Of a stretch of 31,414 bases of DNA, positions 2,580 through 27,101 are shown piece after piece. The stretch is from a virus: IMG/VR virus record IMGVR_UViG_3300009177_000725, positions 1-31,414 of that record; one strand, 5' to 3'. Position numbers and translations under genes: made by a program. Numbering within the stretch: the stretch's first letter is position 1; each line of letters starts with the position of its first letter. The notes under the pieces are model-generated. The model had not been told where the DNA came from. It did not search any database and saw nothing but the letters and a program-made list of their open reading frames with translations.

Positions 2580-2876
2580 ATGAACGAACCGTTGCTAGTA
2601 GAACCCACTCCGTCCGAGGATCCAGGGATGACCGATCGAGGAAGAACCGTTCGCGAAGCCATCGCGATTGCGCTCGAAGGTATCCCCGGCCAGCCTGACG
2701 GTTGGTTGTTCGTGCCGATCGAGCGAGCTGCGGTGCGCGAGCACGTCATCGGTTGGATCCAGGACTACGCGCAGCGACGCAACGTCATCCTCGATGTGAA
2801 GAAGGACATCGAGCCTGAACTCGACCTGGTGATCAAGCAGCTGCGCGGTATCGCGATTGCGAGGACACGAACGTGA
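2580..2876 (+). CDS. hypothetical protein heading the plus-strand array
   Basis: A 98-residue protein from the ATG at 2580, which lacks an obvious ribosome site. An internal ATG at 2628 (product MTDRGRTVREAI) has GAGGA upstream and is a real alternative. The body is helical and charged, with no Cys and no W-tag, so it differs from the genes after it. Its stop overlaps the next start as GTGA. Being first after the divergent control region, it probably shares the transcript of the whole plus-strand array. Family not recognised. Confidence 0.75.
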   Translation: MNEPLLVEPTPSEDPGMTDRGRTVREAIAIALEGIPGQPDGWLFVPIERAAVREHVIGWIQDYAQRRNVILDVKKDIEPELDLVIKQLRGIAIARTRT

Positions 2877-3166
2877 GCATGGCCAACATCTGGTTCGATC
2901 GCGCGTGGAAGCGGTGGCGTGCGCGCAAGCTGACGCTCGACAACATCGACAACCACCATACGCTCAGCATCATCCGCGCAGCGATGTCGGTTCCTGAAGT
3001 GCTCGATGCGAGCTTCCACGTCGTTGACTCGTTCGTTTACGTCATACACATCAAGGTGCGGCGCGGTTGGGCTGAGCTGATGAATGTGATCGACAGGGTG
3101 GAGTTGGAGCTAGAAGAGTTCGTTCCAGCTGGCTTCGACTACGACGTGTCAGGGGAATACGAGTGA
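2873..3166 (+). CDS. W-tag family small protein
   Basis: The GTG at 2873 overlaps the previous stop (GTGA). The product begins MSMANIWFDR, a W-tag with Met at position 3, followed by a very basic stretch (AWKRWRARK). The 97-residue body has no Cys; it looks like a small alpha/beta domain with strands around residues 45-60 (ASFHVVDSFVYVIHIKV) and an acidic C-terminal helix. This is the first tagged member on the plus strand and differs from most others in lacking the C-x2-C element. Function unknown. Confidence 0.8.
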   Translation: MSMANIWFDRAWKRWRARKLTLDNIDNHHTLSIIRAAMSVPEVLDASFHVVDSFVYVIHIKVRRGWAELMNVIDRVELELEEFVPAGFDYDVSGEYE

Positions 3167-3441
3167 GCCTCGCGAAACATTGGGAGCGCAAAGCGCGTCA
3201 TCGTCAACAGATCGCTTTGTTCGCGAAGCTTCGCCGATCGTTCGATTCAGAGATCGACCACATTCACATCAGGGAAGTCGTTCGCACCGATGACTTCGTC
3301 ACACCGTTTGGTAACAATGCGCCGCTGTGTCTGACCGAACCGCTCGGTGTCAAAGTTATTCGCCTGCATCCATATGTCGCTAGCTCACCTCGCCTCTGTC
3401 GCGATTGCGAAGCGAGAATGCATAGGATGCAAAGGTCATGA
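3163..3441 (+). CDS. W-tag family small protein with C...CxxC
   Basis: The GTG start overlaps the previous stop by 4 nt. The product (92 aa) begins MSLAKHWERK and continues basic for about 25 residues. The body has Cys56 (PLCL) and then C79-x2-C82 (LCRDC) near the C-terminus, which is the recurring second element of this family, probably a metal site together with one more ligand such as one of the His residues. The C-terminal tail after the Cys pair is only 10 residues. Function unknown. Confidence 0.82.
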   Translation: MSLAKHWERKARHRQQIALFAKLRRSFDSEIDHIHIREVVRTDDFVTPFGNNAPLCLTEPLGVKVIRLHPYVASSPRLCRDCEARMHRMQRS

Positions 3442-3749
3442 GCCTCAAACCGATTTGGAAAGAGCGAGCTGAAACGAAAGCGCTCGCTCGCGCAGCTGAG
3501 CCGAAGCTCGTCGACGCGTTTGGACCGTCGCCGCTCGCAGGATTCCGTCCGCTCTCGTTCCAAGAGATCCGCGACAGGTTGGTGACGGAGTTCAAACTCC
3601 AGATGCCACATTGCTCACACGCCATCGATGATCCAACGAGCAATTTCGGTCAGTTCATCAACGCAATCGCAGCTGCGGACGTCGACCTGTACAAACAAGT
3701 CGAAGCAGCGGTGAAGTTCATAGAAGAGAAAGGTGTGAAGCTCAAATGA
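3438..3749 (+). CDS. W-tag family small protein, no CxxC
   Basis: 103 residues beginning MSLKPIWKER, with ATGA overlap at the start. The basic tag is followed by a Pro-containing middle and a mostly helical body (FQEIRDRLVTEFK; DVDLYKQVEAAVKFIEEKG). There is a single Cys (C59) and no metal motif, so this is a tag-plus-helical-body version of the family. No family homology recognised beyond the tag. Confidence 0.8.
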   Translation: MSLKPIWKERAETKALARAAEPKLVDAFGPSPLAGFRPLSFQEIRDRLVTEFKLQMPHCSHAIDDPTSNFGQFINAIAAADVDLYKQVEAAVKFIEEKGVKLK

Positions 3750-4222
3750 GCATCAACAGCGTTTGGAAAGCGAAGGCTCTAGAGGAACAGCGCCGACTTG
3801 CGCTCTTGCGTCGCACGCACCTGTACCTCGTGATGGACATAGTGACAGACGAGAACGGTGACAAGCTCGTAGGCAGGCACGGCGTCTACTGCCAGACACC
3901 AGCACTCGACGGCTTCGACTACAATCGCGTGTCGACGTATGTGCATAGCGATTTCGCGGTCCGTGGTGCGGACCTCGCTCCTCGAACCGTACGAGCCGGC
4001 CGCTCCTGTTTGGATCACGACGTCGATTGCGAGACCTGCCAGCACGTATGGGAGCCGTTCCGTGAATGGGCGAAGACGCGCATACCACGACCGGATCTCG
4101 CTAGCGACGTGGAGGAGCTGAGCGAGGCGCTGAGGAAAGGCTACTCGACGGAGCCGCGAACGTTGAGGGTGGAGTCGCTCGAACAAACGCTGTCGCTCCT
4201 GCGTCCACCGAGGCGCAGATGA
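3746..4222 (+). CDS. W-tag family small protein with extended Cys element
   Basis: 158 residues, the longest plus-strand member, beginning MSINSVWKAK (Ile replaces Leu at tag position 3). Residues 25-50 are strand-like (HLYLVMDIVTDENGD), with C49; then C88, C95 and C98 (DCETC) followed by a Trp-containing helix. After the Cys element it has about 55 extra charged residues ending in PPRRR, so it may carry a second small domain. ATGA coupling at both ends. Function unknown. Confidence 0.82.
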   Translation: MSINSVWKAKALEEQRRLALLRRTHLYLVMDIVTDENGDKLVGRHGVYCQTPALDGFDYNRVSTYVHSDFAVRGADLAPRTVRAGRSCLDHDVDCETCQHVWEPFREWAKTRIPRPDLASDVEELSEALRKGYSTEPRTLRVESLEQTLSLLRPPRRR

Positions 4223-4521
4223 GCCTCGCAAGCATTTGGCGCAATCGCAAACCGATTAGCCGTGACCAGAAACCGCTCGACGCGTTCCACGCGTACATCA
4301 CGCGGCACAACGCGACCTACGACGATCGTGACTACGAAGTGCAGACGGACTACGGCGAGCTGAAGCTCTGCGAGAACATCAACATACGGCGTGCGCCGAT
4401 CGCTACGCACTCTGTCGTAGAGGTGAAAATCCGCGAGCCTTACGTCCATTGCACGAAGTGCGTGAGTGACATCGCGTGGCTGAAGAAGATGAAGTTCGGC
4501 GAGATCGTGGAACTCAAATGA
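4219..4521 (+). CDS. W-tag family small protein with C...CxxC
   Basis: 100 residues beginning MSLASIWRNR, which matches the family consensus exactly. C51 (LKLCENI) and C78-x2-C81 (HCTKC) are 27 residues apart, in the usual order, with strand-like sequence between them. The end is short and basic to hydrophobic (IAWLKKMKFGEI). Starts and ends in ATGA overlaps. Together with the genes starting at 4772 and 5660 it is among the clearest full members of the family. Confidence 0.83.
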   Translation: MSLASIWRNRKPISRDQKPLDAFHAYITRHNATYDDRDYEVQTDYGELKLCENINIRRAPIATHSVVEVKIREPYVHCTKCVSDIAWLKKMKFGEIVELK

Positions 4522-4775
4522 GCCTCGCGTCGTACTGGTGGATGCGCGCGACCAATCGCGGCACGATTGCAGGACCGATCCACCTCGTAGTCGATCACAA
4601 ACGTGGTTGCTCATTGCTCGCGTGCTCTATCTTCCCTTGCGTCGCGAGCGACGTCATAGACGCGCACGTGCAGCGCAACTTCAAAGAGCCCACCTGCGAA
4701 CGCTGCAAAAGCCTTTGGGGGTGGATTGAAACCGGCCTACTGATGCGCCGCGCATTGGAGTCATTCATCAAATGA
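4518..4775 (+). CDS. W-tag family small protein, Cys-rich
   Basis: 85 residues beginning MSLASYWWMR. The start at 4518 was chosen for the tag and the ATGA overlap; an in-frame ATG at 4476 lies inside the previous gene. Cys at 31, 36 and 41 precede C60-x2-C63 (TCERC), followed by an aromatic helix (SLWGWIETG). The segment VDHKRGC is closely matched by VDHKPGC in the first half of the fused gene starting at 5247, so these two look like recent relatives. Confidence 0.82.
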   Translation: MSLASYWWMRATNRGTIAGPIHLVVDHKRGCSLLACSIFPCVASDVIDAHVQRNFKEPTCERCKSLWGWIETGLLMRRALESFIK

Positions 4776-5056
4776 GCCTCGCTAGCCTCTGGCAGAAACG
4801 TTCCCGACTGGTGCGCCCTGCGCCACCTGTCATCCACTGGTGGGTCACGGTGTGGTTCTTCACCGCTGAGGACCCAAACGACTTCGCCGAAGACGAGCAC
4901 TTCGAGCCGAGGGGTAAGGAAGCGTGCTTGTTCTACGACGACGCCAAATCGGAGAAGTGGCACGCGCGCGATTGGCTCGAAGACGTTGAAGCGCCCCTAC
5001 CCATGCAAGACACCATCACCTGCCCCAAATGCATAGAGCTGTACATCGACCTATGA
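4772..5056 (+). CDS. W-tag family small protein with C...CxxC
   Basis: 94 residues beginning MSLASLWQKR. The middle is aromatic and strand-like (IHWWVTVWFFTAEDP) with C52 (EACLFYD), and C84-x2-C87 (TCPKC) lies seven residues before the end. Apart from the basic tag the protein is acidic. ATGA overlaps at both ends. The order tag, strand-rich segment with one Cys, spacer, terminal C-x2-C is the same as in the genes starting at 4219 and 5660. Confidence 0.83.
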   Translation: MSLASLWQKRSRLVRPAPPVIHWWVTVWFFTAEDPNDFAEDEHFEPRGKEACLFYDDAKSEKWHARDWLEDVEAPLPMQDTITCPKCIELYIDL

Positions 5057-5250
5057 GCCTCAAGGGTCTCTGGAAGCGACGTGTAGAGCAACGCATCGAT
5101 GCTGCGTTTGCAGCGAAGCACCCAATGCCTGACGCCAACGGTTGGTACGACGATCCGTTTGCAAAACTCGACAAGCTCGGTATGGAAATCCGTGAAGGGA
5201 AGACCACAGCTATGACCGAGCTTCTCGGAAAGATGTACGGTAAAAAATGA
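5053..5250 (+). CDS. W-tag family short protein, no Cys
   Basis: 65 residues beginning MSLKGLWKRR, with ATGA coupling to both neighbours. The body is one helix-rich unit (RVEQRIDAAFAAKH) and a lysine-tipped end (GKMYGKK). It has no Cys, so it is the shortest complete tagged member and shows that the tag occurs without the metal element. An upstream in-frame ATG at 5029 lies within the previous gene and lacks the tag. Confidence 0.8.
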   Translation: MSLKGLWKRRVEQRIDAAFAAKHPMPDANGWYDDPFAKLDKLGMEIREGKTTAMTELLGKMYGKK

Positions 5251-5663
5251 GCCTCACCAGCATTTGGGAACGTCGTGCCCATCGTCGCCAGCAATGGCTA
5301 CACGTCGACGGTAGGCGCGTGCTCGCACTGATGCCGGTCGACCACAAACCAGGCTGCTACGAGCAAGCTATGAGTCTCGCGTCCCTTTGGCTGCGTCGTG
5401 CGCAAAGCCAGGCGAAGCCACCGACGAGGTTCCTACACATCTCGGTGCTCGAACGCATCCCATACATCAATGGTCAATTCATCAACCAGTCGCTCGATTA
5501 CAAACTGAACGAAATGTGGCTCTGTTGCGTCCCATTGCCAGAGTTGCTCGGTGTACGCAAGATGCAAACACCGCACGCGTTTACCGACGAGCGCAGCACG
5601 TGTACCGATTGCCTGGAAGCACGCCGCAGAGTGCTCGCACAAACCGTGGACACACGACGATGA
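5247..5663 (+). CDS. in-frame fusion of two W-tag family members
   Basis: 138 residues with two tags: MSLTSIWERR at residue 1 and MSLASLWLRR at residue 42. The first 41 residues look like a truncated member: tag, then a short body ending VDHKPGC, similar to VDHKRGC in the gene starting at 4518. The second half is a full member with C93/C94 and C119-x2-C122 (TCTDC). The internal ATG at 5370 still has the ATGA context of the other junctions, but the upstream stop is out of frame. Translation may also start at 5370. Confidence 0.82.
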   Translation: MSLTSIWERRAHRRQQWLHVDGRRVLALMPVDHKPGCYEQAMSLASLWLRRAQSQAKPPTRFLHISVLERIPYINGQFINQSLDYKLNEMWLCCVPLPELLGVRKMQTPHAFTDERSTCTDCLEARRRVLAQTVDTRR

Positions 5664-6007
5664 GTCTCAACAGTATTTGGTACCGACGCTCAATGAACGC
5701 TCTCAAAACGCGTTCAGTAATTGCTACTCCATTGCACTGGCGCATCTTCCAATGGGCGTACGTCAACGAGACGCTCAACATCAACGACAGAACGCAGTAT
5801 CCCCTCGGTGTGCAGGCGTGTCTCATCAGTCACTACGAGAACGTGTCGACGAACCTTCTCGAATGGGACTCCTCGTTCCACGACAACGCAGCGATTCTTG
5901 CTGCGGCGAACGAAGGGTCACAGGTGTGCGCGAAGTGCATGGATGGCTGGCTCGACTTCGTGAGAGACCACGGCATCACCGTTTATCGGCGTGGGCGCAG
6001 CTGGTAG
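5660..6007 (+). CDS. W-tag family small protein, last of plus array
   Basis: 115 residues beginning MSLNSIWYRR, ATGA-coupled to the fused gene before it. The body is aromatic in its first half (HWRIFQWAYV), with C54 (QACLISH) and C90-x2-C93 (VCAKCMDGW), then a basic end. It is the last plus-strand gene; the non-coding convergent region follows at once. Confidence 0.82.
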   Translation: MSLNSIWYRRSMNALKTRSVIATPLHWRIFQWAYVNETLNINDRTQYPLGVQACLISHYENVSTNLLEWDSSFHDNAAILAAANEGSQVCAKCMDGWLDFVRDHGITVYRRGRSW

Positions 6008-6530
6008 CAATTGCGAAACTACAGCGCACTCTGGTGCACGTAGGAACAACAGATTTCTCATTGATAAAACGCAGTTTCAGTAATTGAGGGCGTAGCTCGC
6101 TCCCACAGCCCGGACCCTATCGAGCACGAGTTCACGGACGCCGCCGGCGCGTGACACGATCGTGCTCGTCGACGACTCGTGTGCTGTGCCGGGAGCATGG
6201 AGTTGTAAAACATAGCTGCACTCCTACGCTGCATCCTCATACTGCAATGCTAGACCGCATTGCTACGATACAATGCTATGCACCAATGCATAGAGCCAAT
6301 GAGGGTGGGTGCACCAAATGCGACCGCACAATAGAGCACGGTCTGCATTGCATTTGCGATTGCCATTGTGCGCGCATGCGATGGTGATGCGCGCGAGGCC
6401 GGGCATTAGGGGAGGCGCACACCTAGCACCACATTGCAGGTACATGCGCTACGATTGCGATGCTACGATGCGCTCCTATGCGCATATGCATAGGTGCTAC
6501 GCAATAGGAACGCCTTCCTAGAGTGCATTC
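6008..6530. other. non-coding convergent region between the two arrays
   Basis: 523 nt between the end of the plus array and the end of the minus array, with no convincing gene. The first third has large inverted repeats (6121-6182). From about 6190 to 6530 the sequence is full of short recurring words such as GCAT, ATGC, TGCAT, CAATGC and CTACGAT, giving a local composition unlike the coding regions on either side. A plus-strand frame ending at 6387 contains CTKC but is better explained by this word bias. It may hold a terminator, a replication or recombination site, or decayed gene remnants. Confidence 0.6.
6121..6182. terminator. nested inverted repeats, probable bidirectional terminator
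   Basis: CGAGCACGA (6121-6129) pairs with TCGTGCTCG (6160-6168). Inside this, TCACG (6132-6136) pairs with CGTGA (6150-6154), and CGCC (6139-6142) with GGCG (6146-6149). An alternative arm ACACGA (6154-6159) pairs with TCGTGT (6177-6182), so two structures are mutually exclusive. There is no T-tract. Position between convergent arrays supports a two-way terminator. Confidence 0.5.
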
Positions 6531-7034
6531 CTATGCAGGTGGCTTCCTGAGATGCGGTGGTGGTCCATCGAAAAACCGACTGCACTCCAGCAAGCACCGC
6601 TCGTGTAAATCGCGATTGCTCTCCAATGCCCTCCACGGTCCATTAGGTGGCTTGTCCTGTACCGCCTTGCGTTTGAGTCCTAGCTTTGCTGCGTGATGGT
6701 TCAGGATGTCAGCGACTATCGCGTAGCCTGTTTCGTCTGCGTGCGTGAAACGCTCCACGTCATACATGATGCCCTTGAGGCTGTGCTCCAAATGAGAGAA
6801 CAGCATGAAGCGGTACACCTCATCCGTTACCGCTTCCGTTCTGTCCCTCGCTAGGTGCGGCGCTGTCGTGTCGTAGTGCTCTAGCGCTTGCTTGCGCTTC
6901 ACGCCCATCACTTCGCCTATCCTGTCTAGCTGTTCGGTTCGTGCAGTCCATAAGCTAGCCGGTTTGTCATGGGCTGGTTTTGTGCGCTCCAATTGCTGTT
7001 CTAGGCGCTGCTTCCATACGGTGTGTAGCGTCAT
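6531..7034 (-). CDS. W-tag family protein, last of minus array
   Basis: 167 residues beginning MTLHTVWKQR. The start at 7034 overlaps the upstream stop. The body is helical, and part of it (ARTEQLDRIGEVMGVKR) resembles a segment of the gene at 8039-8473 (ARGRDLDAVGELLQVPR); in both a helical stretch follows. This body type lacks the C...CxxC element. The sequence pattern recalls short segments of phage structural proteins but I cannot make a family call. Confidence 0.8.
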   Translation of the reverse strand: MTLHTVWKQRLEQQLERTKPAHDKPASLWTARTEQLDRIGEVMGVKRKQALEHYDTTAPHLARDRTEAVTDEVYRFMLFSHLEHSLKGIMYDVERFTHADETGYAIVADILNHHAAKLGLKRKAVQDKPPNGPWRALESNRDLHERCLLECSRFFDGPPPHLRKPPA

Positions 7035-7195
7035 TTGCTGAACAGCGATTTCCCTGCGCTGTTACAGGTGGCGCAGATTTTGGCGATTGATAGCAGCTCG
7101 CGCGACGCATACGGCAGTTCTACGCCGCATTCGTGGCACACGTGTTTGTTACAGATGAGGCATTGGTAAACGCGTTTGTGTTGGCATTGGCTCAT
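7031..7195 (-). CDS. small multi-Cys zinc protein, untagged array member
   Basis: 54 residues from the ATG at 7195, which overlaps the upstream stop as ATGA; upstream in-frame starts lie inside that gene. Six Cys in three pairs, C12/C15, C20/C23 and C41/C44 (CLIC, CHEC, CATC), suggest a compact zinc finger resembling B-box or RING-like treble clefs. It begins MSQCQHKRVY, so the tag Trp is missing although the gene sits in the tagged array. Confidence 0.75.
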   Translation of the reverse strand: MSQCQHKRVYQCLICNKHVCHECGVELPYASRELLSIAKICATCNSAGKSLFSK

Positions 7196-7626
7196 TTGAT
7201 GTTCCCTTCTAGCAGCGCTGCCCTGATGCGAATGATGCAATCGTTGCACGTCACTGGTGTAGCTCCTGCTTTGAGGAATGTGCGTGCGATGTGTATGCGC
7301 TTGCGTTGGTAGTTGTCCCTGTACCAGCGCATGAACTGGCACACAGGCGTTTTGTTGCCGTGCATCGAGTGCACGATTGCATGGATGCGTTTGGGGTCTG
7401 GCTCTAGCAGCTCAAATAGCGGGGACATGATGTCGTCGCATTTGGGACATGTCGGTCGCAGCTGCGCGCTGTCCACCGCTACGAAGCGTTTCATCCTCAC
7501 CTGTGCGTTGCTCGTAAAGCCATCCCAAATCGAGCACAGCTCTAGCTTACACTGCTTGCGGTCGCCAGGCAGGATGTACCAGGAATGTCGTATGAGCTTG
7601 CGTTGCCAAATGCTCGCTAGGCTCAT
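7192..7626 (-). CDS. W-tag family protein with two C...CxxC units
   Basis: 144 residues beginning MSLASIWQRK. Two copies of the family's Cys element follow one another: C26/C31 with C60-x2-C63 (TCPKC), then C96 with C127-x2-C130 (VTCNDC). This points to an internal duplication of the metal-binding unit. The start at 7626 was chosen for the tag and the ATGA overlap. Function unknown; the VTCxxC ending is common in small zinc proteins of phages. Confidence 0.83.
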   Translation of the reverse strand: MSLASIWQRKLIRHSWYILPGDRKQCKLELCSIWDGFTSNAQVRMKRFVAVDSAQLRPTCPKCDDIMSPLFELLEPDPKRIHAIVHSMHGNKTPVCQFMRWYRDNYQRKRIHIARTFLKAGATPVTCNDCIIRIRAALLEGNIK

Positions 7627-8042
7627 GTGCGTTGCTCCATGTTTGTGATCCATTCGTAGCCGCATTCGCATTTGAATTGCATCGTGGGGTCGTTCAGCAT
7701 GCCGCGAATCAGCTCGATGTCGTGCGCAGCTGCGCCGCACCTAGGGCATTGCAGCTCGTCATCAGCATCGAACGTTTCAGCGAGCGTGTGGCGCGGTAGC
7801 TCGCCGTGTACAGGTGTGGCCACGATTCGCTGTTCTGTGACCACGATGTCGCCTTTACTACGGCTGCGCATCTCTGTGCATTTGATGCAAGGCGCGATGC
7901 ATCGACCGTTTGGCTGTAGACGCGTTCCAACGTAGTCGTAGCGCCTGGGATGGATGCAGCCGCAATCTACGCACTGCGTGCGCACCGTGCTCTTGGCTCG
8001 CTTCTGAGCCTGTCTGTGCTGCCAAAGGCTCGCTAGGCTCAT
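7623..8042 (-). CDS. W-tag family protein with zinc ribbons
   Basis: 139 residues beginning MSLASLWQHR. The body is richer in Cys than its neighbours: C24/C27, C48/C52/C55, C99/C102 (CPRCG) and C125/C127 (CECGYEW). The last two pairs fit a zinc ribbon of about 30 residues. It shows the tag joined to a different metal domain. The start at 8042 is set by the tag and ATGA overlap. Confidence 0.83.
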   Translation of the reverse strand: MSLASLWQHRQAQKRAKSTVRTQCVDCGCIHPRRYDYVGTRLQPNGRCIAPCIKCTEMRSRSKGDIVVTEQRIVATPVHGELPRHTLAETFDADDELQCPRCGAAAHDIELIRGMLNDPTMQFKCECGYEWITNMEQRT

Positions 8043-8473
8043 TTGCAACACTCCTCGCAAACGTGGTTGGTATCTACGCCGTGCACCGTGAGCCATTCGA
8101 TCACAATGGCGCGCAATCGGTCTTTGAATTCCTCATCGCTCTCTTTGCACACACGGTAGTCGCCGTAGTCAGGATCGTTCCTGTACGTGCCTAGCGTGAC
8201 CGCAGCGTTGTTCAACTTGATGTGGTCACGCACAGGCGCAACCGTGAGCCCAATCGCGTGTAGTACAGCGTTCAGGATGATGAGCCTGTAGGCGCGTTGC
8301 AGTGCACCGTTCAGTGGGTCATCGATGGTCGCAGGGCGGGGAACTTGTAGCAGCTCGCCCACGGCGTCAAGGTCTCTACCGCGCGCTGTGAACACGTTGA
8401 TCGCGTACAGGTCGCGCGGCTCTGCGAAGCGTGCATCAGCCTTGCGTCGCCACAGGCTCTTGAGCTTGCTCAT
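8039..8473 (-). CDS. W-tag family protein with helical body
   Basis: 144 residues beginning MSKLKSLWRR, a tag lengthened by one residue. The body contains ARGRDLDAVGELLQVPR and later DEEFKDRLRAIVIEW, a pattern like that in some phage baseplate-type proteins (inference from pattern only), and is partly shared with the gene at 6531-7034. It ends in CEECC. The start at 8473 is set by the tag and an ATGA overlap. Confidence 0.8.
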   Translation of the reverse strand: MSKLKSLWRRKADARFAEPRDLYAINVFTARGRDLDAVGELLQVPRPATIDDPLNGALQRAYRLIILNAVLHAIGLTVAPVRDHIKLNNAAVTLGTYRNDPDYGDYRVCKESDEEFKDRLRAIVIEWLTVHGVDTNHVCEECCK

Positions 8474-8733
8474 TTGCGTTTGCTCTTTCTGATGGCATCG
8501 ATCAAGCGGTACAGCGATGCATCTACGATCTCGAACGTAGCCACCACGCACATCAAGCCTGATGTGACTAGGAAACCAACGCCGCCGATTGTCATTGGTA
8601 CGTTTGCTGCGATGAGCATCGGCAACACGCACAGCAAGACAAACCGCATGCCGTTTGTACGCCACGAGGTTTGCTGTTTGATGTCGCGTGCGAACCATGG
8701 CCATAGCAGCCGATCAACCGTTCGGAGCTTCAT
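8470..8733 (-). CDS. small membrane protein in minus array
   Basis: 87 residues with two adjacent hydrophobic spans (about 30-48, FVLLCVLPMLIAAN, and 50-72, GFLVTSGLMCVVATF) separated by a short turn, and basic residues at both ends. This predicts a two-pass inner-membrane hairpin. The start MKLRTVDRLLW has a Trp at residue 11 but does not match the tag. AAGGA precedes the ATG at 8733. It is the only membrane protein in the arrays. Confidence 0.75.
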   Translation of the reverse strand: MKLRTVDRLLWPWFARDIKQQTSWRTNGMRFVLLCVLPMLIAANVPMTIGGVGFLVTSGLMCVVATFEIVDASLYRLIDAIRKSKRK

Positions 8734-8753
8734 ATGGGATTCGTCCTTCCGCT

Positions 8754-9005
8754 CTATAGGTCTTCATCGTCGATTGCCTCTAGTGCAAACAGCTCGCGTG
8801 CAGCGCGGTAGCTCTCGTCATCCGATGAGAACGCTGCATGCACTTCTTCTGGCGTGTACAACATGCGCACCTCGCTTGCCGGTCCGCGGGCCGCTTGCTG
8901 CAACAGCTCGTTTAGGTCGCTGTTGTCCACGCGTCGACACGTGAGCATGTCAGCGAGCGCTTTGCGTCGACGAGCACGCGCTAGCCAGTGTGCGCCTAGA
9001 GGCAC
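8754..9005 (-). CDS. W-tag family protein, GTG start
   Basis: I chose the GTG at 9005 because it yields a tag-like N-terminus (VPLGAHWLARARRRK, initiator Met in the cell) and a 10-nt overlap with the upstream gene. The 83-residue body is acidic toward the end (FALEAIDDEDL) with one Cys and no metal motif. The segment LYTPEEVHAAF could be a small helical domain. A 20-nt gap separates it from the membrane-protein gene, the only gap inside the minus array. Confidence 0.72.
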   Translation of the reverse strand: MPLGAHWLARARRRKALADMLTCRRVDNSDLNELLQQAARGPASEVRMLYTPEEVHAAFSSDDESYRAARELFALEAIDDEDL

Positions 9006-9220
9006 GGCAATCCCAATCGCTCGCGACACGTGGGGCAATCGACGAGCTTGAGATCGAGCCCAAACCAATGGCGCGCGTTCATGCGGATCGTGCGTGCAAC
9101 GTAGCCATCGAAGTAGAACGCGCTCACCTCGCAAACCTTCGTGCGTGAGCCACGAGCTTTGCGAGCGTGCACATACTCTTCAGGGCCGAGCACGCGACGC
9201 TTCCAAAGCGTCGCCAGCAT
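8996..9220 (-). CDS. W-tag family small protein with C...CxxC
   Basis: 74 residues beginning MLATLWKRR, a tag one residue shorter than the consensus (position 2 missing). C30 (KVCEVS) and C62-x2-C65 (DCPTC) give the standard Cys element, with aromatic strands between. The ATG at 9220 overlaps the upstream stop as TGATG. Ends with a further Cys (GLPCL). Confidence 0.8.
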   Translation of the reverse strand: MLATLWKRRVLGPEEYVHARKARGSRTKVCEVSAFYFDGYVARTIRMNARHWFGLDLKLVDCPTCRERLGLPCL

Positions 9221-9624
9221 CAGTAACGAAACCTCGTGCTCGCGTAGCGATCGAACACGCTCGGTCGTTCGGCTTTGCGTTCCTCGTGAAGCTTGATCGT
9301 CTTCAGTGCCTTGATCGCTTCAGGACTCATGCCGGCATACTCGATCTCATCGCGGCGCCTCGCAAACACCGCGAGGTTCAGCTCGATCGCAGCCCACGAC
9401 GAACCATCAGGCACCCAACCTTTGAGGATGCGGTCCTCAACATCAGCGATGTACATGCGCCGTTGCTCGTCTAGCTCGGCGAGCAATTTGGGTGTGCGCT
9501 CGATCGCCTCAAACATCGCGCGCTCTTGATTGGCGATGATGCGCTCGGCCGCTTGCTCTTGTGCCAAGCACATACGCTGCCAAAGCGTCATGCCGTGTTT
9601 GTTCTGCCAATGCGACTTCAGCAC
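9220..9624 (-). CDS. W-tag family protein with a doubled tag
   Basis: 134 residues from a GTG that overlaps the upstream stop by one base (TAGTG). Two tag-like starts lie head to tail: VLKSHWQNK and, from an internal ATG at 9591, MTLWQRM. The body is a long, highly charged helical region (residues about 15-130) with no Cys, unlike the zinc-type members. The doubled start may mark a past fusion, or an alternative initiation site. Confidence 0.78.
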   Translation of the reverse strand: MLKSHWQNKHGMTLWQRMCLAQEQAAERIIANQERAMFEAIERTPKLLAELDEQRRMYIADVEDRILKGWVPDGSSWAAIELNLAVFARRRDEIEYAGMSPEAIKALKTIKLHEERKAERPSVFDRYASTRFRY

Positions 9625-10115
9625 TAGAACCGCCTTTGGACCGAGATGAGACGGTCAGTGCCAGTTGCGTACGCGAGCGAGCCATCGCGCATGCTGCGCC
9701 AAATGAGGCGTTTGTTCAGCTCCTCGCGTAGCTCGTACTGCTCCTCGCCACCGAACAACAATTCCGATAGCACTTCGGCGCAATCGTCGCACAGGTCGTT
9801 TGCGATCACCGTGTAGGTGGGCGCGATGATGCAATCGCTTGCAAAGCTGTCATTGGTTGGCATGACGAGCGCAGCCAGCCTCGGGAACTCTAGCGAAGCC
9901 GTGCGTCGCATGTTGCCGGCATAGCGCCTGCACACCCAATACTCGGTGTTGTCGTTGAAACATGCGTAGGCATGGCCATCGACTGCACGCGTGTTCTCGC
10001 GCAAACGATTGAACGCTGCGATCGTCTCACGTGCTGCGCCGTGCATCTGCGGCTTCACCTCTAGAGGCTTCCACGATGAGCGTGCTCGCCCCTTCCAAAT
10101 GCTCTTGAGTGTCAT
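9624..10115 (-). CDS. W-tag family protein with C...CxxC
   Basis: 163 residues beginning MTLKSIWKGR. The body has C52 and C62 in an aromatic segment (ACFNDNTEYWVCRRY), C95, then C109-x2-C112 (LCDDC), with about 50 residues after the Cys element. Start at 10115 by tag and ATGA overlap. Function unknown. Confidence 0.82.
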   Translation of the reverse strand: MTLKSIWKGRARSSWKPLEVKPQMHGAARETIAAFNRLRENTRAVDGHAYACFNDNTEYWVCRRYAGNMRRTASLEFPRLAALVMPTNDSFASDCIIAPTYTVIANDLCDDCAEVLSELLFGGEEQYELREELNKRLIWRSMRDGSLAYATGTDRLISVQRRF

Positions 10116-10756
10116 GGGCGCATCCCTCCACGCATGAGGCTTGCTTCTTCGTTTGTGGTGTAGCTCGTGTATTCGTTCTCTGGCCTGTTCGGTCCAAACA
10201 AGCGACCAAAGATCGCGGTGCAAATCGAGCACGCGTCAGGAACGCGTGACACCTCGCTGATGAACTCGGCGTATTCGCGAAACAGAAAAGTCTGGTGAGC
10301 GTAGATCGCACCGCACGCTAGCTCACCGCTCGTTGCACTAGACCAACGCAGGTGCGTGAACTCTTCGCCGTAGTGCGGATCGTTGATCATGCCAACCCAC
10401 GTCGCGATGTCGTTCGCCACCTCGAAGCAACGCTCGCAACCAACCGCGCCACCTTGGGTGAGGAACTTGCGCACGGTGGTTTGTGCCGGCCACAGCTCAT
10501 GGCGTGGCAGATTGAACGCGCGCGCCGATTGGAATGCAGCCTCATTCCAGCCGCACAACGTGTGCCGTCCGTTGTTCTCGTGAGGCGGTCGCAGCAAATG
10601 CGAGAACGTCTTCATGTCTTCTCTACGCTTGTAGGTTGACCAATGCGGCATCTTTCCAGGCTTGCCGAAGATTCGCTTCCCTAGCTTGCGCTGTCGCTCT
10701 AGAAGCAACGCATAGCGCTTCCGTGCGCGCTCGCTCCAAACGGTAGTGATGCTCAT
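10112..10756 (-). CDS. W-tag family protein with duplicated C...CxxC unit
   Basis: At 214 residues the longest member, beginning MSITTVWSER, with a strong ribosome site (AAGGAGAAGCAGGAG) before the ATG at 10756. Two Cys units follow in order: H-x2-CG with C68, C107 and C110 (GCERC), then C148 (ACGAIY), C176 and C179 (CSIC). The H...CG...CxxC pattern is common in small hypothetical zinc proteins of phages and actinobacteria. Its own ribosome site suggests it can be translated independently of the gene before it. Confidence 0.83.
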   Translation of the reverse strand: MSITTVWSERARKRYALLLERQRKLGKRIFGKPGKMPHWSTYKRREDMKTFSHLLRPPHENNGRHTLCGWNEAAFQSARAFNLPRHELWPAQTTVRKFLTQGGAVGCERCFEVANDIATWVGMINDPHYGEEFTHLRWSSATSGELACGAIYAHQTFLFREYAEFISEVSRVPDACSICTAIFGRLFGPNRPENEYTSYTTNEEASLMRGGMRP

Positions 10757-10974
10757 CTCCTGCTTCTCCTTGTGCGCCGCTTCGCTCTGCGAAACTCAGA
10801 GCAACCGCATTTGCACGGTGTCGCGTACGTTGCGCCTGTCTTCGTGTCTAGCTCCATGTGCGAGATGCGAGGGTGACCGCACACGCACAAATCGGTCCAC
10901 TTCCAGCGCTGCACCTTGCGTCTCTTTGGGTGCTTCGCGTTGTGCTTCTCACGCCACACGCTCGCGAGCGTCAT
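10753..10974 (-). CDS. W-tag family small zinc protein (CxCGH type)
   Basis: 73 residues beginning MTLASVWREK. The body has C30-x-C32-G-H34-x4-H39 and C54-x-C56-x-C58 (CKCGCSEF), a compact zinc-binding pattern found in many short phage and bacterial proteins, then an Arg-rich tail (RRAKRRTRRSRR) suited to nucleic-acid binding. The start at 10974 is chosen for the tag and ATGA overlap. The metal domain is different from the C...CxxC unit of its neighbours. Confidence 0.82.
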   Translation of the reverse strand: MTLASVWREKHNAKHPKRRKVQRWKWTDLCVCGHPRISHMELDTKTGATYATPCKCGCSEFRRAKRRTRRSRR

Positions 10975-11435
10975 GACACGGTCCACATCCCTAGCTCCGT
11001 GATGATGACGCCAGGTGGCGCGTGATCGCGGATGTTGGCCTGCACGTCAGCCGGCACGCACTGCCACATCTCAGCGTGGTGGGCCAGGTTGTGCTCACAC
11101 GCCGGGCAAAGCGTGCAGCCGTCCACCTTCATCAGCTGAAAGTGCGGCTTGTTCGTCATCAGCTCGCACGGTAGCTCGCACAGGTGGATGCGCGTGCGGT
11201 AGACCTTGTTGCACTTGGCAACGTTGACGAGCGCTCCTAGCGTGGCGTTATCGAGCCGAGCGTTCGACAGGTTGGTTGCAGGGTTGAACATCAGCGGCAC
11301 CTCAGCGATCTGATCGCCGATCATATGCTCGACGTGCCACATCACAGCCCACGCGTGATAGATGCCTGCGTTCTCGTCCGCATCTCCGATCGCGCCTTGG
11401 ATCGCCTTGCGTCTGAAATGACTCGCGAGACTCAC
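10971..11435 (-). CDS. W-tag family protein, first of minus array
   Basis: 154 residues from a GTG at 11435 with AGGTGAG upstream, beginning (V)SLASHFRRK, where Phe replaces the tag Trp. Cys at 86/90 and 107/110/113 (CTLCPAC) give the Cys element. Just upstream is a possible seven-residue leader frame (MMNQGEL) whose stop overlaps this GTG and which has GAGGAG before it, so translation may be coupled to a leader peptide (low confidence). It lies downstream of a terminator hairpin and so starts a transcription unit. Confidence 0.8.
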   Translation of the reverse strand: MSLASHFRRKAIQGAIGDADENAGIYHAWAVMWHVEHMIGDQIAEVPLMFNPATNLSNARLDNATLGALVNVAKCNKVYRTRIHLCELPCELMTNKPHFQLMKVDGCTLCPACEHNLAHHAEMWQCVPADVQANIRDHAPPGVIITELGMWTVS

Positions 11436-11915: not shown

Positions 11916-13745
11916 CTACGCCATGAAGTCAAAGTTGAAATGGTTCGTGCCGCGCAAGCGGTCCATCGCGAGCTGGCTGTAGAACAACGCGTGCGCTAGG
12001 TGATCGTCGCTCGTCGAGTTGATCACCTCGATGATCTCTTCGGTCTCTTCGTCCTGTTCGAGCATCGGTGCGAGCGCCTTCAAGTGATCCACGATCGCAC
12101 GCGAGATTTCGTATTCCATGTTGGGGAACGCGATCTCGCGATCCTTGATGAGCCGACACAGGTTCTTCAGCGCGAGCGTTCGATCGCACAGCACTTGGTT
12201 ACGAGCTGGTTGCCATGACGGCGTGAACGTCTGGCCACCCTTCTCAGCTGGATTGTAGCGGCACGCAAAGAAGCGACCCTCACCGTAGCGGCGTAGCAAG
12301 TACGCGTTGCGGTCTTTGCCGTAGCCATCGTCAGCGATAATCATGTCCGGCTTGTACTTGTCGATCCACGCATCGATCTTGCGAACGCTCTCTAGCTCCT
12401 TCGAACGATTGTCCTCAAACACAGCGCCGTTCATGATGTACTGCCGGCCGTTCGTGTTGAGACCCTTCACCACGATCCAATTCTTGTGGCCCCAATCGAT
12501 GCCCACCGTGACGTAGACCCAATCGTCCGTGCGGTAGTTGATCAGCGGATGGCCTGCGGTGGCCATGTCGAAGTCGTTCTCGTTTAGGAGCATCGACTCG
12601 CCGAGCGAAACCTCGCCGAGCACGTAGTTCGTCCAAAGCTGAATGAACTTGTAGTCCACTCGCTTTTGCATGATGTCGGTCGCGCTGAGCCAGATCGCGA
12701 TCATTTGCGGCATGTGATAGCCGCGCCAGCGCTTCACGTTTGGACGCTCGGCGACCCACTCACCGTTCAGGCGATCGAGCGTGCCTCCACACTTCGTCTT
12801 GCTGCAAACGAACGCAAATGCGTCCGGTGGTAGTTCCTTGGGAAGCACCATCGGCAGATCGATTTGCTGCTTGATGTTGTTGTGCGTGATTTGCTGCTTC
12901 ATGCCGCAGCGCGAGCACTTCACGAACCATTGACGCTTGTCGCTAAGCTGGTAGGTCTCGTCCACGCCACGGTTCGGGAGGGTTGGTGTCGACACGTCGC
13001 GCACCCACCCAAACGGAGACGATGACATCGACTCCTTGAAGGCGACTTCGATGCCGGCCTTCATGCGGTCCTTCTCATCGAACACGACGACGTCAGCGTT
13101 TACACCTTCGCCGAGTCCAGCTTCCCACGCGCTACGCAGAATCAGGTGAGAGTTGTTGATGCGCTTCGTTTGCTGTTGATTCACACCGGTGAGCAAACGC
13201 CGCATGCGTGGCGTCTCTGCAAACGCAGGATTGATGCGCGTGGTGGCGAGCGTCTCCAGCTGCTTGTCACGAGGGAACGTGTAAATCAGGTTCGTGTTGT
13301 CGTGCTGATCGAGGAAGCAAATCGCTTCGGTAAGCGAAAGCTCGGTGATACCGATCTGTCGTCCTTTCTTGTAGACCTTCTGAGGGTGCTCATCGCGCAG
13401 CGGTTCGATCTGCCACGGCCGATGCTTCTGCATCATGGAGATCTTGTGGCGCGCTAGCTCGCGAGGCGTTGCAGCGCGATCCTTGGCCCACTTTGCAAAC
13501 GCGTCTTCGGTGATGTGGCGCGCGACGTCGAACACCATCGGCGAGCCCTTGAGACGACGGTTGTACATCGTCCAAATGACCGGATCGAGCTTCGACAGCT
13601 GTTCGAGCGCTTCGCGCGTGCCTGACTTGGGCAGGTTCGCGAACAGCTCCTCGATGCGCTTCTGCTTGTCCGACTTCGCGGTGCCTGGCGGTGCAGCGCC
13701 GGGCTGTTCGTCCTGTCGGTCCAGCACCTCTTCCAGATCAGCCAT
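11916..13745 (-). CDS. terL: terminase large subunit
   Basis: 609 residues; packages DNA into the prohead using an ATPase motor and a headful or cos nuclease. ATPase: a Walker A-like loop at 127-136 (KGRQIGITEL) and Walker B at 219-224 (VVVFDE). A zinc-finger-like insert has C277-x2-C280 and C314-x4-C319. The nuclease part shows the expected acidic residues D417 (GIDWGHKNW), D472/D473 (IIADDGYG) and D580/D581 (TSDDHLAHAL). The Cys-rich insert and order fit the lambda gpA-like large terminases better than the T4 gp17 type, but that placement is inference. The ATG at 13745 has AGAGGT upstream. Confidence 0.93.
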   Translation of the reverse strand: MADLEEVLDRQDEQPGAAPPGTAKSDKQKRIEELFANLPKSGTREALEQLSKLDPVIWTMYNRRLKGSPMVFDVARHITEDAFAKWAKDRAATPRELARHKISMMQKHRPWQIEPLRDEHPQKVYKKGRQIGITELSLTEAICFLDQHDNTNLIYTFPRDKQLETLATTRINPAFAETPRMRRLLTGVNQQQTKRINNSHLILRSAWEAGLGEGVNADVVVFDEKDRMKAGIEVAFKESMSSSPFGWVRDVSTPTLPNRGVDETYQLSDKRQWFVKCSRCGMKQQITHNNIKQQIDLPMVLPKELPPDAFAFVCSKTKCGGTLDRLNGEWVAERPNVKRWRGYHMPQMIAIWLSATDIMQKRVDYKFIQLWTNYVLGEVSLGESMLLNENDFDMATAGHPLINYRTDDWVYVTVGIDWGHKNWIVVKGLNTNGRQYIMNGAVFEDNRSKELESVRKIDAWIDKYKPDMIIADDGYGKDRNAYLLRRYGEGRFFACRYNPAEKGGQTFTPSWQPARNQVLCDRTLALKNLCRLIKDREIAFPNMEYEISRAIVDHLKALAPMLEQDEETEEIIEVINSTSDDHLAHALFYSQLAMDRLRGTNHFNFDFMA

Positions 13746-22728: not shown

Positions 22729-23811
22729 TCACTTCTCCGCGCTGCGTAGCAGCTCGATGCCGGTTTGCAGGAGCGTCTTCGTTTCGAGCCCCTGGCGTTT
22801 GATGTCCTTGCGTTTGTGCTTCACGTACCGCTTGAGCACCTTGCGTGGCGCCAATGCCGGGGAGACGTCCAAACGCTTCTTCGTTTGGCGCTTCGCGCTC
22901 GGCAGTGCGATTGGGTTGATACCTCGTGCGCCCTTCTTCTTCACCGCAGCGAGGTACGCGTCGAGTTCTTCGTCTGCCTTCGCGTACACGACATCGACGA
23001 AGTTACCCTTCACCCCTTTGAGCGGTTCGCCGACTTTGCGCGTGACGAAGCGCGGACGATCGAGCGCCACTCTTTCGACGTGAAGCGTTTGCGAGTCCAC
23101 GACAAGAAAGCCCTTGGGGTCATGCGTTCGGTCGCTTCGAGTGTGTTCAAGAGGGGAACCAATGTAAAAACCTCGACGGACACCCTGAATCGCTTGGTGC
23201 GCGTGATAATGGCCGCTGAGGACGAGTCCAAACGTTTTGTCGAGCTTGAGCGCCTTGGCATCGATCGGCTCCTTCACTTCGTATTCGAGCGAGCTACCAA
23301 CGCTCGCACCTTTGAAGCCGTGGTGGAACAAACCGATGTGACGTTTGCGATCGTACCCTGGCAAGCGGCGCTTCATTTCGCGGATGCGCTTCGCTAGCAC
23401 GTCAGGCGATTCGCAGTACGCGAACATCGTGACGATGATGCCGGCCACTTTGACGCAGCGGAATCCCTTCGGACCGATGCCGACCATCAGGCCCCCGGCC
23501 ATCAAAGCCTGTAGAGCGTGGATCGTGCCTTCCTTGTCCTCATCGTCGTGGTTGCCGTGCACCGCGCGAAACGCGATGCCGGCTTCCTTGAAAAGTAGAA
23601 GCTCGTTTGCCACAGCGACGTACGGCGACGTCCAGAGCACACCGCGTTTGTGAAACAGGTCTCCACCGAAGAAGACGTCTTTCACACCGTTCGCGATGCA
23701 CCACTTCCTGATGTCGGTCAGCACCGAGAGACAGTCTTGCAACCGCTCCGATGCGCCGAATTCAGGGAACGCGTGCGCGTGCAGGTCGCTGAAGAAAACG
23801 AGCTTGGTCAT
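22729..23811 (-). CDS. sbcD: SbcD/Mre11-like nuclease
   Basis: 360 residues, the metallophosphoesterase subunit that pairs with SbcC to cut DNA ends. Metal ligands are in order: D9-x-H11 (SDLHAH), D51 (GGDLFH), N87-H88-D89 (GNHDD), H163/H164 (FHHGF) and H201-x-H203 (GHYHAH). The last 120 residues are basic (KRYVKHKRKDIKRQG), probably for DNA or SbcC binding. It precedes sbcC by three small genes, so the pair is transcribed together. Confidence 0.93.
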   Translation of the reverse strand: MTKLVFFSDLHAHAFPEFGASERLQDCLSVLTDIRKWCIANGVKDVFFGGDLFHKRGVLWTSPYVAVANELLLFKEAGIAFRAVHGNHDDEDKEGTIHALQALMAGGLMVGIGPKGFRCVKVAGIIVTMFAYCESPDVLAKRIREMKRRLPGYDRKRHIGLFHHGFKGASVGSSLEYEVKEPIDAKALKLDKTFGLVLSGHYHAHQAIQGVRRGFYIGSPLEHTRSDRTHDPKGFLVVDSQTLHVERVALDRPRFVTRKVGEPLKGVKGNFVDVVYAKADEELDAYLAAVKKKGARGINPIALPSAKRQTKKRLDVSPALAPRKVLKRYVKHKRKDIKRQGLETKTLLQTGIELLRSAEK

Positions 23812-23963
23812 GAGTTCGGCTTCGTGTGCAGCTCGATGAGCCGTTGCTTCACGCGCTCGGCAAACGCTTCGACGGTCTCGTCAGGCTTGCGCTCGACGCG
23901 ATCGTTGACGTAGCGCCTGTTCGTTTGCATGACGCAAATCGCAAGCGAGAACTCAGCCGCCAT
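23808..23963 (-). CDS. small helical protein, 51 aa
   Basis: ATG at 23963 with GAGGG upstream, overlapping the stop of the previous gene by 11 nt; a second in-frame ATG lies at 23930. The stop overlaps the sbcD start (ATGA). The product is a charged helix (DETVEAFAERVKQRLIELH). Not recognised. Confidence 0.68.
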   Translation of the reverse strand: MAAEFSLAICVMQTNRRYVNDRVERKPDETVEAFAERVKQRLIELHTKPNS

Positions 23964-24645
23964 TCGCGCCCTCGTGCAGACGAGCGCGCGCCGTGATCTC
24001 GTAGAGGCGGAACACGAACGCTTCAGCTTCGTCGATCGACATCTCGCGACCGAGAAGCGTGATCGACTGCTTCTGCATCCTGCCCTCGGCGAAGATCACC
24101 GACAGCTCCGGTTGCGGAAGGTTCTCGACCTTCGGCGCGGTGATCGCGAGCTGCGCCATGATCGCCGCTCGCGTCGCATTGTCGTTGAGGTTGAAGAAAC
24201 CGATGCCGTTCTTGTTCTTCTCGACTTCTTCGCGCAGCTCTTGGTTCGCAGCTTCCAGCATCTCCGTCTTCCCTCGTAGCTCCTCGCGTTCGGTGAACGC
24301 GCGTTGGATTGCGTCGCGACCGGCACGCGCCACGGTCTCCGACTTCGTGGTGCGCATCAGCTCCTCGATCTCGTCGAACGACTGAGCGTGCAGCTCGAAC
24401 GCCGGGCACTTCTTGTGACACGCCAGCGGCTCGTCACCATCGCGCTCGACGTCCACGTTGCCGATGTCCTTCTGATCATCGATCCTGAAACCACACTTGG
24501 TGCAGTGACAGAAGCGCCAGTGGCGATCGAACTTCTTCACCACCACGTCGAGATCGAGCTGGTTCGCATCGATCGCTGCAAACGCACCAGCGATGTAGTT
24601 CTTCCGTGCAGCGATGCGCGCGTGCTCGTCACCGAAGCTAGTCAT
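23953..24645 (-). CDS. zinc-binding protein with coiled coil, 230 aa
   Basis: Start at 24645 overlaps the upstream stop by 8 nt. Residues 46-51 (CHCTKC) and C76-x3-C80 (ACHKKC) form a probable zinc site, followed by a coiled coil at about 110-160 (AFTEREELRGKTEMLEAANQ) and a folded end (SIDEAEAFVFRLYEI). Upstream ATGs in the same frame lie inside the previous gene. Function unknown; neighbours are DNA-end processing genes. Confidence 0.75.
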   Translation of the reverse strand: MTSFGDEHARIAARKNYIAGAFAAIDANQLDLDVVVKKFDRHWRFCHCTKCGFRIDDQKDIGNVDVERDGDEPLACHKKCPAFELHAQSFDEIEELMRTTKSETVARAGRDAIQRAFTEREELRGKTEMLEAANQELREEVEKNKNGIGFFNLNDNATRAAIMAQLAITAPKVENLPQPELSVIFAEGRMQKQSITLLGREMSIDEAEAFVFRLYEITARARLHEGANGG

Positions 24646-25009
24646 CACGGTACGCCGCCTCCTGCGCTTCGTGCGCGTGCGTGACGATCGCGCGCTTGGC
24701 CAGCGGCGACAGCTGCACGTCGAGCGGCTTGCCGTGCTCGTCGATCCACTCGATGTCACGCGGCTTGTAGTCGTGGTGGCTGAGCAAGAGCGTGATTGCA
24801 TCGCGGTGCACCGCGATTGCGTGCTTGTTGGACGCCTGCATCGACATCAGCTCGTGCTTCAGGAACTTCGCTTCGGTTCGCGCGTTGCGAAGCTCCACGT
24901 TCAAGATGTCGATCTGATGCGTGCGCGCGGTCGCCTCTTGCTTCAGTCGAGTCACCTCGTCGAGCGCCGACTGCAATTGCGCTTCGAGGATCTTCTTCGT
25001 CGCCACCAC
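24638..25009 (-). CDS. coiled-coil protein, 123 aa
   Basis: GTG at 25009 with AGGAGG six bases upstream (a GTG at 25006 also fits). Residues about 5-60 form a coiled coil (LEAQLQSALDEVTRLKQEA) and the remainder is mixed (HRDAITLLLSHHDYKPRDI). It overlaps the next gene by 8 nt. Not recognised. Confidence 0.73.
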   Translation of the reverse strand: MVATKKILEAQLQSALDEVTRLKQEATARTHQIDILNVELRNARTEAKFLKHELMSMQASNKHAIAVHRDAITLLLSHHDYKPRDIEWIDEHGKPLDVQLSPLAKRAIVTHAHEAQEAAYRDD

Positions 25010-25010
25010 G

Positions 25011-25364
25011 CTACTCCTCCTTCGCTTTCTTCTTTTTCTTCTTCGCCTTCTTCTCGCCACCGTCACCGGCCGGCTTCTCCATCGCCTCGATGTCCCACCG
25101 ACCGCGCGTCTTCTCCGGGTCGATGGTGTACTTCTCGATGGTCATCACGCCCTCGTGCTCCATCAGCTTCTTGAGCGGCGAGTTGATGAGCTGCACGACG
25201 TTCGCGAGCTTCATCTTGGTGTTGATCGTCACGACCGTGTAAGCGACGTCTTCCTTGTCCTTGTCGACGCGCTTCTCGATCAGCTTCTTCATGTTCTGCA
25301 TCGACGTCGCAGCCTTCCGATCCTTCGGCTTCGCGTCGCTGGTTGCGATCAGTAGCTTCGGCAT
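25011..25364 (-). CDS. Lys-rich-tailed hypothetical protein, 117 aa
   Basis: ATG at 25364, one base after the previous stop. Residues 1-90 look like a small folded domain (MPKLLIATSDAKP; AYTVVTINTKMKLANVVQL), and the last 25 residues are a lysine/glutamate tail (EKKAKKKKKKAKEE) likely to bind nucleic acid or an acidic partner. Not recognised. Confidence 0.75.
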   Translation of the reverse strand: MPKLLIATSDAKPKDRKAATSMQNMKKLIEKRVDKDKEDVAYTVVTINTKMKLANVVQLINSPLKKLMEHEGVMTIEKYTIDPEKTRGRWDIEAMEKPAGDGGEKKAKKKKKKAKEE

Positions 25365-25365
25365 G

Positions 25366-25629
25366 TCACTTCGTTCCCTTCTTGGTGGCGTTGCGCTCGA
25401 CGATGGCGTTGAGCGCTTCGATGTCCATGCGCTGCTTCGGCCGCGCCATCTTGCGCAGCTTCACGCCCTTCTTCCGGTAGCTGTTCACGCGCGAGTAGAC
25501 CGCGTTGCGCGGCAGACCGGTCTTCTCCATCACCTCGTCGATCGTCGACGAGGAACTCCACGCATCGCAGAACGCTTCCGCGGTGACGCCGTACACCGGC
25601 TTGACCTTCTTCTTCTTTGCCTTGCTCAT
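25366..25629 (-). CDS. helix-turn-helix protein, 87 aa
   Basis: ATG at 25629. After a basic start (MSKAKKKKVK) a helix-turn-helix is seen at about residues 28-56 (TIDEVMEKTGLPRNAVYSRV, then NSYRKKGVKLR), like the small HTH proteins of phages that pair a DNA-recognition helix with a basic wing. It probably binds DNA as a regulator or DNA-processing accessory. ATGA overlap with the gene before. Confidence 0.78.
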   Translation of the reverse strand: MSKAKKKKVKPVYGVTAEAFCDAWSSSSTIDEVMEKTGLPRNAVYSRVNSYRKKGVKLRKMARPKQRMDIEALNAIVERNATKKGTK

Positions 25630-26027: not shown

Positions 26028-26033
26028 CGCTGG

Positions 26034-26558: not shown

Positions 26559-26584
26559 GGTCTGCTCCTGTCTATCGTTGTGAG
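26559..26584 (-). promoter_or_regulatory. conserved 5' leader, copy 2
   Basis: Read on the minus strand, CTCACAACG, five bases, then CAGGAGCAGACC directly before the ATG at 26558. Copy 1 precedes the AAA+ gene at 18875. The copies differ only in the spacer between the two blocks. Confidence 0.45.
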
Positions 26585-26640
26585 ACCGACGTTTCAGCGC
26601 ACGCTACTACGCTGCGATCTGTGAACGAAGACAGAAACGA

Positions 26641-26994: not shown

Positions 26995-27000
26995 AGACGA

Positions 27001-27034
27001 AAGGGCCACCAGGCTGGATTGCCTAGCAGCCCTT
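27001..27034 (-). terminator. terminator-like hairpin before the wHTH gene
   Basis: AAGGGC (27001-27006) pairs with GCCCTT (27029-27034), with an inner AGGC/GCCT stem. On the minus strand the stem ends GCCC and is followed by TTTCGTC, the tail seen at 11502 and 15479. It sits in the 107-nt gap after the operon at 27102-31404 and directly before the next start, so it may terminate that operon or attenuate the winged-HTH gene. Confidence 0.55.
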
Positions 27035-27101
27035 AGTTCGACACTACAGGACTCACCTACGTTTTGCAGTTTCTCTCGACTTCGGAGATCTGCACCGAGG
27101 T

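Follow-up and report, generated by a model that had tools for sequence, protein, structure and literature searches.

Bacteriophage T4 provides its internal proteins, which are small, diverse and fast-changing accessory proteins, with a short N-terminal capsid-targeting sequence (CTS) of about 10-20 residues (PMC3012670, PMC5694885). Another well-known cluster of small genes, the host-takeover module of SPO1 (Herelleviridae), is reported to encode a ClpCP adaptor-like protein acting on a host protease (PMC6873191). Here, we describe a set of small genes in the 31,414-base virus record IMGVR_UViG_3300009177_000725 (the whole stretch of DNA that was analysed, hereafter the window), whose products share the N-terminal tag M-[ST]-L-x-[ST]-[ILV]-W-x-x-[RK].

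As in T4, a short N-terminal signal is common to small proteins with diverse bodies, and the window phage encodes a head maturation protease as well as a putative scaffold. In contrast to T4, there are about two dozen carriers rather than a few, and the cargo consists of predicted zinc bodies and structural-protein segments. Because the sequence of the tag is unrelated to that of the CTS, no T4-type cleavage motif is enriched after it and packaging is inferred, we do not file the tag as a CTS, although the two resemble each other in anatomy. With the SPO1 module, which belongs to a related myovirus lineage, the locus shares the clustering of small genes; however, the large terminase subunit (terL) of the window is only 36% identical to that of SPO1 (over 94% of the length), and we know of no shared N-terminal tag described for this module, whose SPO1 sequence was not searched for one. 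Finally, about half of the tagged bodies have a short H/C zinc layout similar to that of small phage zinc-finger proteins of unknown function, whereas the tag helix lies outside the weak matches looked at.

The N-terminal tag and its conservation

Using a position matrix built from the tags themselves (cut-off 13), 22 tag starts within 21 coupled genes were detected in the window, 16 starts in the related contig G001 and two in contig G004, which appears to adjoin the window (see below). No start in the untagged relatives scored 13 or more, and with reversed sequences as the control, the window gave no such start and G001 a top score of 10.5. All tag starts listed in a previous reading of the window made from the sequence alone (the sequence-only reading) are present, those at 9005, 9220, 9624 and 11435 being weaker variants. 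Furthermore, a motif-free comparison of the N-termini at all plausible starts revealed up to 14 neighbours in the window and G001 alike, versus 2-3 in the reversed controls, and the top cluster was the tag in both cases. In 12 other related contigs there was no comparable N-terminal cluster, the top ones being of low complexity or tiny. The shared tag is thus confirmed; the same reading had noted that a tag scattered randomly among the short genes would carry no signal, and the motif-free clustering picks out exactly the tag. Note that another N-terminal string (NLE...HSKKR) is common to two small genes located after terL in the untagged relative G016, a number too low for a judgement.

The start of a tagged gene and the preceding stop codon overlap almost universally by four bases (ATGA/GTGA). 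As this overlap requires a codon starting with A for residue 2, it accounts for part of the [ST] preference at this position, but not for L3, S5, I6, W7 and R10. The use of the same codon exceeds expectation in codons 2-5 only and is at background level from codon 6 on, while W7 and R10 are still fixed; from codon 6 on, the conserved entity is therefore the peptide. The tag has a net charge of about +3 and one Trp, and in an AlphaFold2 model of the zinc family (see below) residues 3-17 are helical, with a predicted local distance difference test (pLDDT) score of 83 for the block 1-10.

Two convergent tagged runs are located beside the terminase gene, one on the plus strand (2580-6007) and one on the minus strand (11435-6531), nearly all genes being linked by 4-base overlaps. 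G001 has the same convergent layout beside its terminase gene, spanning the contig ends; this contig breaks within a tagged gene consisting of short tandem repeats (ILRNG / ITQYS). A second small tag cluster is found in G001 as well as in G004, where it is flanked by the genes for the DnaB-like helicase and the primase; one further tagged gene is present in G001 at 99.7 kb. Two untagged genes (7031-7195 and 8470-8733) lie within the minus operon. In the gene at 5247-5663 the tag occurs twice in the same frame at a distance of 41 residues, which resembles the outcome of a fusion of two adjacent tagged genes.

Bodies of the tagged proteins

The layout H-phi-x-phi, then C, then CxxC and a helix is common to 18 of the 39 tagged proteins. 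These 18 members were selected for C...CxxC, leaving only the H motif as an independent test: H-phi-x-phi precedes C...CxxC in 14 of them, compared with a shuffle mean of 4.4 and a maximum of 11 in 500 shuffles. CxxC itself is found in 23/39 tagged proteins (shuffle mean, 4), and several body pairs are detectably similar. Judged from these sequence features, about half of the tagged bodies constitute one divergent, predicted zinc family (H-C-C-C, or HCCC). Pfam and PDB searches with this family gave nothing convincing and no family at the curated cutoff; one member matches Pfam Phage_zn_bind_8 with an E value of 0.056, and there are weak matches to PHROGs of unknown function.

Other bodies resemble structural proteins. 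Tagged bodies were compared with profiles of 149 protein families of the clade, with 975 shuffled bodies as control. The three best profile matches of all tagged bodies were to the portal, the capsid C-terminus and capsid residues 49-77: the body of g5053 (genes are designated by their lower coordinate in the window) matches the portal N-terminus (family profile, E 1e-5; 48.8% identity over 41 residues to the G004 portal, tblastn E 1.3e-7), that of the G004 gene at 67588 the capsid C-terminus (E 2.6e-5) and that of the G001 gene at 99958 capsid residues 49-77 (E 4e-4). None of the 975 shuffled bodies fell below E 1e-3. Moreover, g3746 resembles the capsid N-arm (profile E 0.012; BLAST 6e-4 to 1e-3), and g8039 probably carries a conserved baseplate segment (pairwise E 6e-5 to a baseplate protein of G005; phrog_4017, E 0.0088), over which the G004 baseplate ortholog aligns as well. 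Three further genes, g3438, g6531 and g2873, are weak baseplate candidates. In isolated phages, g3438 and g8039 gave chance-level matches. The small-body matches span 27-41 residues. When about 3,100 small frames were scanned, partial similarity to another large family was confined to tagged genes and the prohead protease (Fisher P 7e-6, by our own counting), if orthologs that had been missed or split and a single terS-like frame are disregarded. Some of the tagged cargo contains parts of the portal and capsid proteins of the phage itself and probably also of its baseplate proteins. The structural segments are about equally distant (39-55%) from the capsid of their own phage and from those of other members, and are therefore old or fast-evolving rather than recent copies. 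An AlphaFold2 model of the capsid (pLDDT 34) was too poor for mapping the segments.

None of the tagged bodies of the window has a recognizable homolog among the tagged bodies of G001, although G001 possesses 16 high-scoring tags. The tag is kept while the bodies are replaced between the two, and the idea of one tag with many cargos holds in the relative and at more than one genomic place. That the bodies are otherwise different, as the sequence-only reading had it, does not apply to the half with the zinc layout, but they are of at least two unrelated origins.

Segments of the capsid are also found in other head proteins of the clade. The prohead maturation protease (30227-30973 in G004, phrog_1028, E 1.4e-44; 80573-81322 in G001) copies in its C-terminal part the N-terminal segment of the capsid protein (FGSMEELEGASLRRALSAG... 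vs FGLLPTGDTEEIQKALSAG...; KALSAG/RALSAG ... GGxAL; E 2e-6 in G001). A similar RKAL site is present in the putative scaffold, designated as such from the position of its gene just before the capsid gene and from its composition. This capsid-like segment in the protease and scaffold may represent a shared maturation or incorporation site. With a position-specific scoring matrix of the capsid/protease RKAL site the tagged proteins do not stand out (12.3 for g3746; 13.3 for the best decoy). Among the head genes there is also one for a giant helicase protein (phrog_62; 83593-87984 in G001, 23435-27937 in G004), which resembles internal antirestriction proteins of the DarB type; in G004, the tag matrix gives a marginal score to a segment close to the N-terminus of this protein.

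A rare SPO1-like phage lineage

Bases 1-32 of the window are the reverse complement of the first 32 bases of the 88,309-base contig G004 (IMGVR_UViG_3300009177_000031, 88.3 kb), which was found in the capsid scan. Because of this overlap, the matching guanine-plus-cytosine content and the complementary gene content (G004 carries the structural genes and others which the window is without), window and G004 look like adjoining contigs of one phage. Together they comprise about 120 kb, versus 118.7 kb for the relative G001. The core genes of G001 and the window are syntenic and mostly 50-60% identical, a few being weaker (36-37%). The terL gene (11916-13745, minus strand; phrog_675, E 7e-132), which is the syntenic anchor of the array, encodes a protein 61% identical in G001 and 36-37% identical to those of SPO1-type phages. 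The capsid profile matches Gp6.1 (PDB 9vel; E 2e-99) and the portal profile PDB 8q7d (E 1e-96). Terminase, capsid and portal of the SPO1 type are thus all present, pointing to a rare SPO1-like phage lineage; as to formal membership of the family Herelleviridae (shared core genes, Firmicutes host), the lineage is distant and uncultivated, with a genome of about 120 kb.

Both known members of the tagged lineage (window plus G004, and G001) are uncultivated, and no near relative of the window phage was found in the isolated-phage collection. Scans of IMG/VR (with the tag pattern, terminase, capsid, portal and AAA+ protein) and of the GTDB genomes scanned revealed related phages only and no further tag array. 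The tag is therefore confined to one phage lineage within the collections searched.

Possible role of the tag

Our preferred interpretation, which we give slightly less than an even chance, is that the tag serves as a short docking or targeting helix at the N-terminus of fast-changing small accessory proteins; docking in the general sense, with partner and location conjectural, is an even call. A short helix followed by a linker and the body is, by analogy, the anatomy of a docking signal, and the tag clusters at the helicase/primase position are in the same place in G001 and G004 with different bodies. One SPO1-like clade would then attach a docking helix to interchangeable small accessory proteins, the helix would bring every tagged protein to one common partner, and each body would perform its own job there. 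The favoured partner would be a component of the pathway by which the phage is assembled, namely the prohead core or scaffold; tagged proteins would thereby enter the head or act on assembling particles, as T4 internal proteins use their CTS; a location in the prohead is nevertheless rather doubtful. We favour a head-assembly destination because the clade reuses capsid N-terminal segments in other head proteins; in this light, capsid segments among the cargo are also less surprising. It is somewhat improbable that the phage fuses its docking helix to zinc domains and to cut-out capsid, portal and baseplate segments, the small imitators misleading immune sensors as decoys or else competing in, or regulating, particle assembly, be it of its own or of rival phages.

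Several observations speak against the preferred interpretation. In T4, the prohead protease cleaves off the propeptide at a site of the (I/L)xE type. A T4-like cleavage motif after the tag was rejected, as [ILV]xE at residues 7-32 occurs in 8/39 proteins compared with 10.9 expected from shuffles. The tag helix is without clear amphipathicity (hydrophobic moment 0.29 vs 0.27 for shuffled tags), and the AlphaFold2 model of the body is of low quality (mean pLDDT 55). In the head proteins of the phage itself no tag match exceeds noise except the marginal one near the N-terminus of the giant DarB-like protein. Furthermore, a baseplate segment among the cargo poorly fits a head-only destination.

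A serious rival, which we regard as somewhat unlikely, is that the array represents one fast-evolving paralogous HCCC family whose slowest part is the N-terminus; the tag would then be simply the first helix of this family, and members lacking the zinc motif would be decayed, truncated or fused copies. The zinc layout of 18 tagged proteins, the enrichment of CxxC and of the H motif and the detectable similarity of several body pairs are all in line with this possibility. However, the full tag is also present on the Cys-less bodies with portal and capsid segments (g5053 and the genes at 67588 in G004 and 99958 in G001), and where the zinc ligands are lost, the frames are open and coupled and the tag is kept.

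The tagged proteins may also act outside the virion as decoys or adaptors, the tag docking to a hub (e.g., a protease of host or phage, or the AAA+ protein of the phage) while the bodies imitate conserved phage parts recognized by host defence sensors or bind host targets, which we consider unlikely. Hosts do sense phage structural proteins: DSR2 is reported to sense the tail tube, an effect that a phage protein counteracts (PMC11087589). The segments imitated here fall in conserved stretches of the capsid, portal and baseplate proteins, but only conserved segments are detectable, so this conservation is partly a detection bias. The adaptor-like protein reported for the SPO1 host-takeover cluster (PMC6873191) would be a precedent for a protease hub. 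A phage AAA+ gene is present in the window and G001 and was not found in the untagged G002; relatives of this gene are, however, also located in tagless phage contigs, and the AAA+ protein was rejected as tag partner for this reason.

It is very unlikely that the tag is a sequence-level device, i.e., a translation-coupling start or a recombination hot spot for cassette swapping, in which the peptide has no role. The near-universal 4-base overlaps and the same-codon excess at codons 2-5 would be expected of such a device, and the double-tag gene suggests recombination at the tag, but W7 and R10 are fixed where codon choice is at background, and the tag is also found on genes beyond the main array. 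Least likely of all is a basic helix binding membranes or nucleic acids, for although charge, Trp and predicted helix would suit it, the hydrophobic moment is no higher than in shuffled tags (a membrane anchor was rejected on this ground) and the conserved Ser5 and Arg10 are more suggestive of a specific fit than of a lipid face.

Genes of the window

Most coding is on the minus strand of the window, which possesses, besides terminase, genes for a RusA-like resolvase, an AAA+ protein, an SbcC/SbcD-like nuclease, RecA/UvsX and a single-stranded DNA-binding protein.

The plus operon starts with an untagged gene (2580-2876), which has a GTGA overlap with the next one. It is followed by g2873 (2873-3166; MSMANIWFDR), whose body is tentatively, by eye only, similar to the C-terminus of baseplate J; a gene with an HCCC zinc body (3163-3441; MSLAKHWERK); g3438 (3438-3749; MSLKPIWKER), with a body weakly resembling the baseplate wedge/J N-terminus (phrog_6, E 0.0056); and g3746 (3746-4222; MSINSVWKAK), in which an HCCC zinc body precedes the capsid N-arm-like segment (residues 120-152). 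HCCC zinc bodies are also encoded at 4219-4521 (MSLASIWRNR), 4518-4775 (MSLASYWWMR) and 4772-5056 (MSLASLWQKR). Then come g5053 (5053-5250; MSLKGLWKRR) with its portal N-terminus-like body, the double-tag gene (5247-5663; MSLTSIWERR and, from 5370, MSLASLWLRR), which has an HCCC zinc body, and the last gene of the operon (5660-6007; MSLNSIWYRR), again with an HCCC zinc body.

On the minus strand, the first tagged gene after terL (10971-11435; MSLASHFRRK, with F for W) has a zinc body. Downstream follow genes at 10753-10974 (MTLASVWREK; Cys-rich basic body), 10112-10756 (MSITTVWSER; long body with two C...CxxC units), 9624-10115 (MTLKSIWKGR; zinc body), 9220-9624 (MLKSHWQNK; recognized with the tag matrix), 8996-9220 (MLATLWKRR, one residue shorter; zinc body) and 8754-9005 (MPLGAHWLAR, a weak tag with a matrix score of 13.9). 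The untagged gene at 8470-8733 encodes a small hydrophobic protein. Next to it, g8039 (8039-8473; MSKLKSLWRRK) contains the baseplate-like segment (TARGRDLDAVGELLQVPRP) and a C-terminal CxxC, and is followed by genes for a Cys-rich body with three CxxC (7623-8042; MSLASLWQHR) and a zinc body (7192-7626; MSLASIWQRK). The other untagged gene (7031-7195) is small and Cys-rich, its start being assigned from the ATGA overlap. The run ends with g6531 (6531-7034; MTLHTVWKQR), which is weakly similar to a baseplate segment (LDRIGEVMGVKR; phrog_6, E 0.13).

Implications

Accessory genes of phages are mostly unreadable owing to their fast-evolving bodies, and a fixed tag makes them findable as a set. 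It also points to a single shared partner that could be fished out. From the structural imitators it may be possible to learn directly whether parts of the virion are employed by phages as decoys or to regulate assembly, and the tag itself could serve for protein targeting in an SPO1-like phage, an application already made of the T4 signal.

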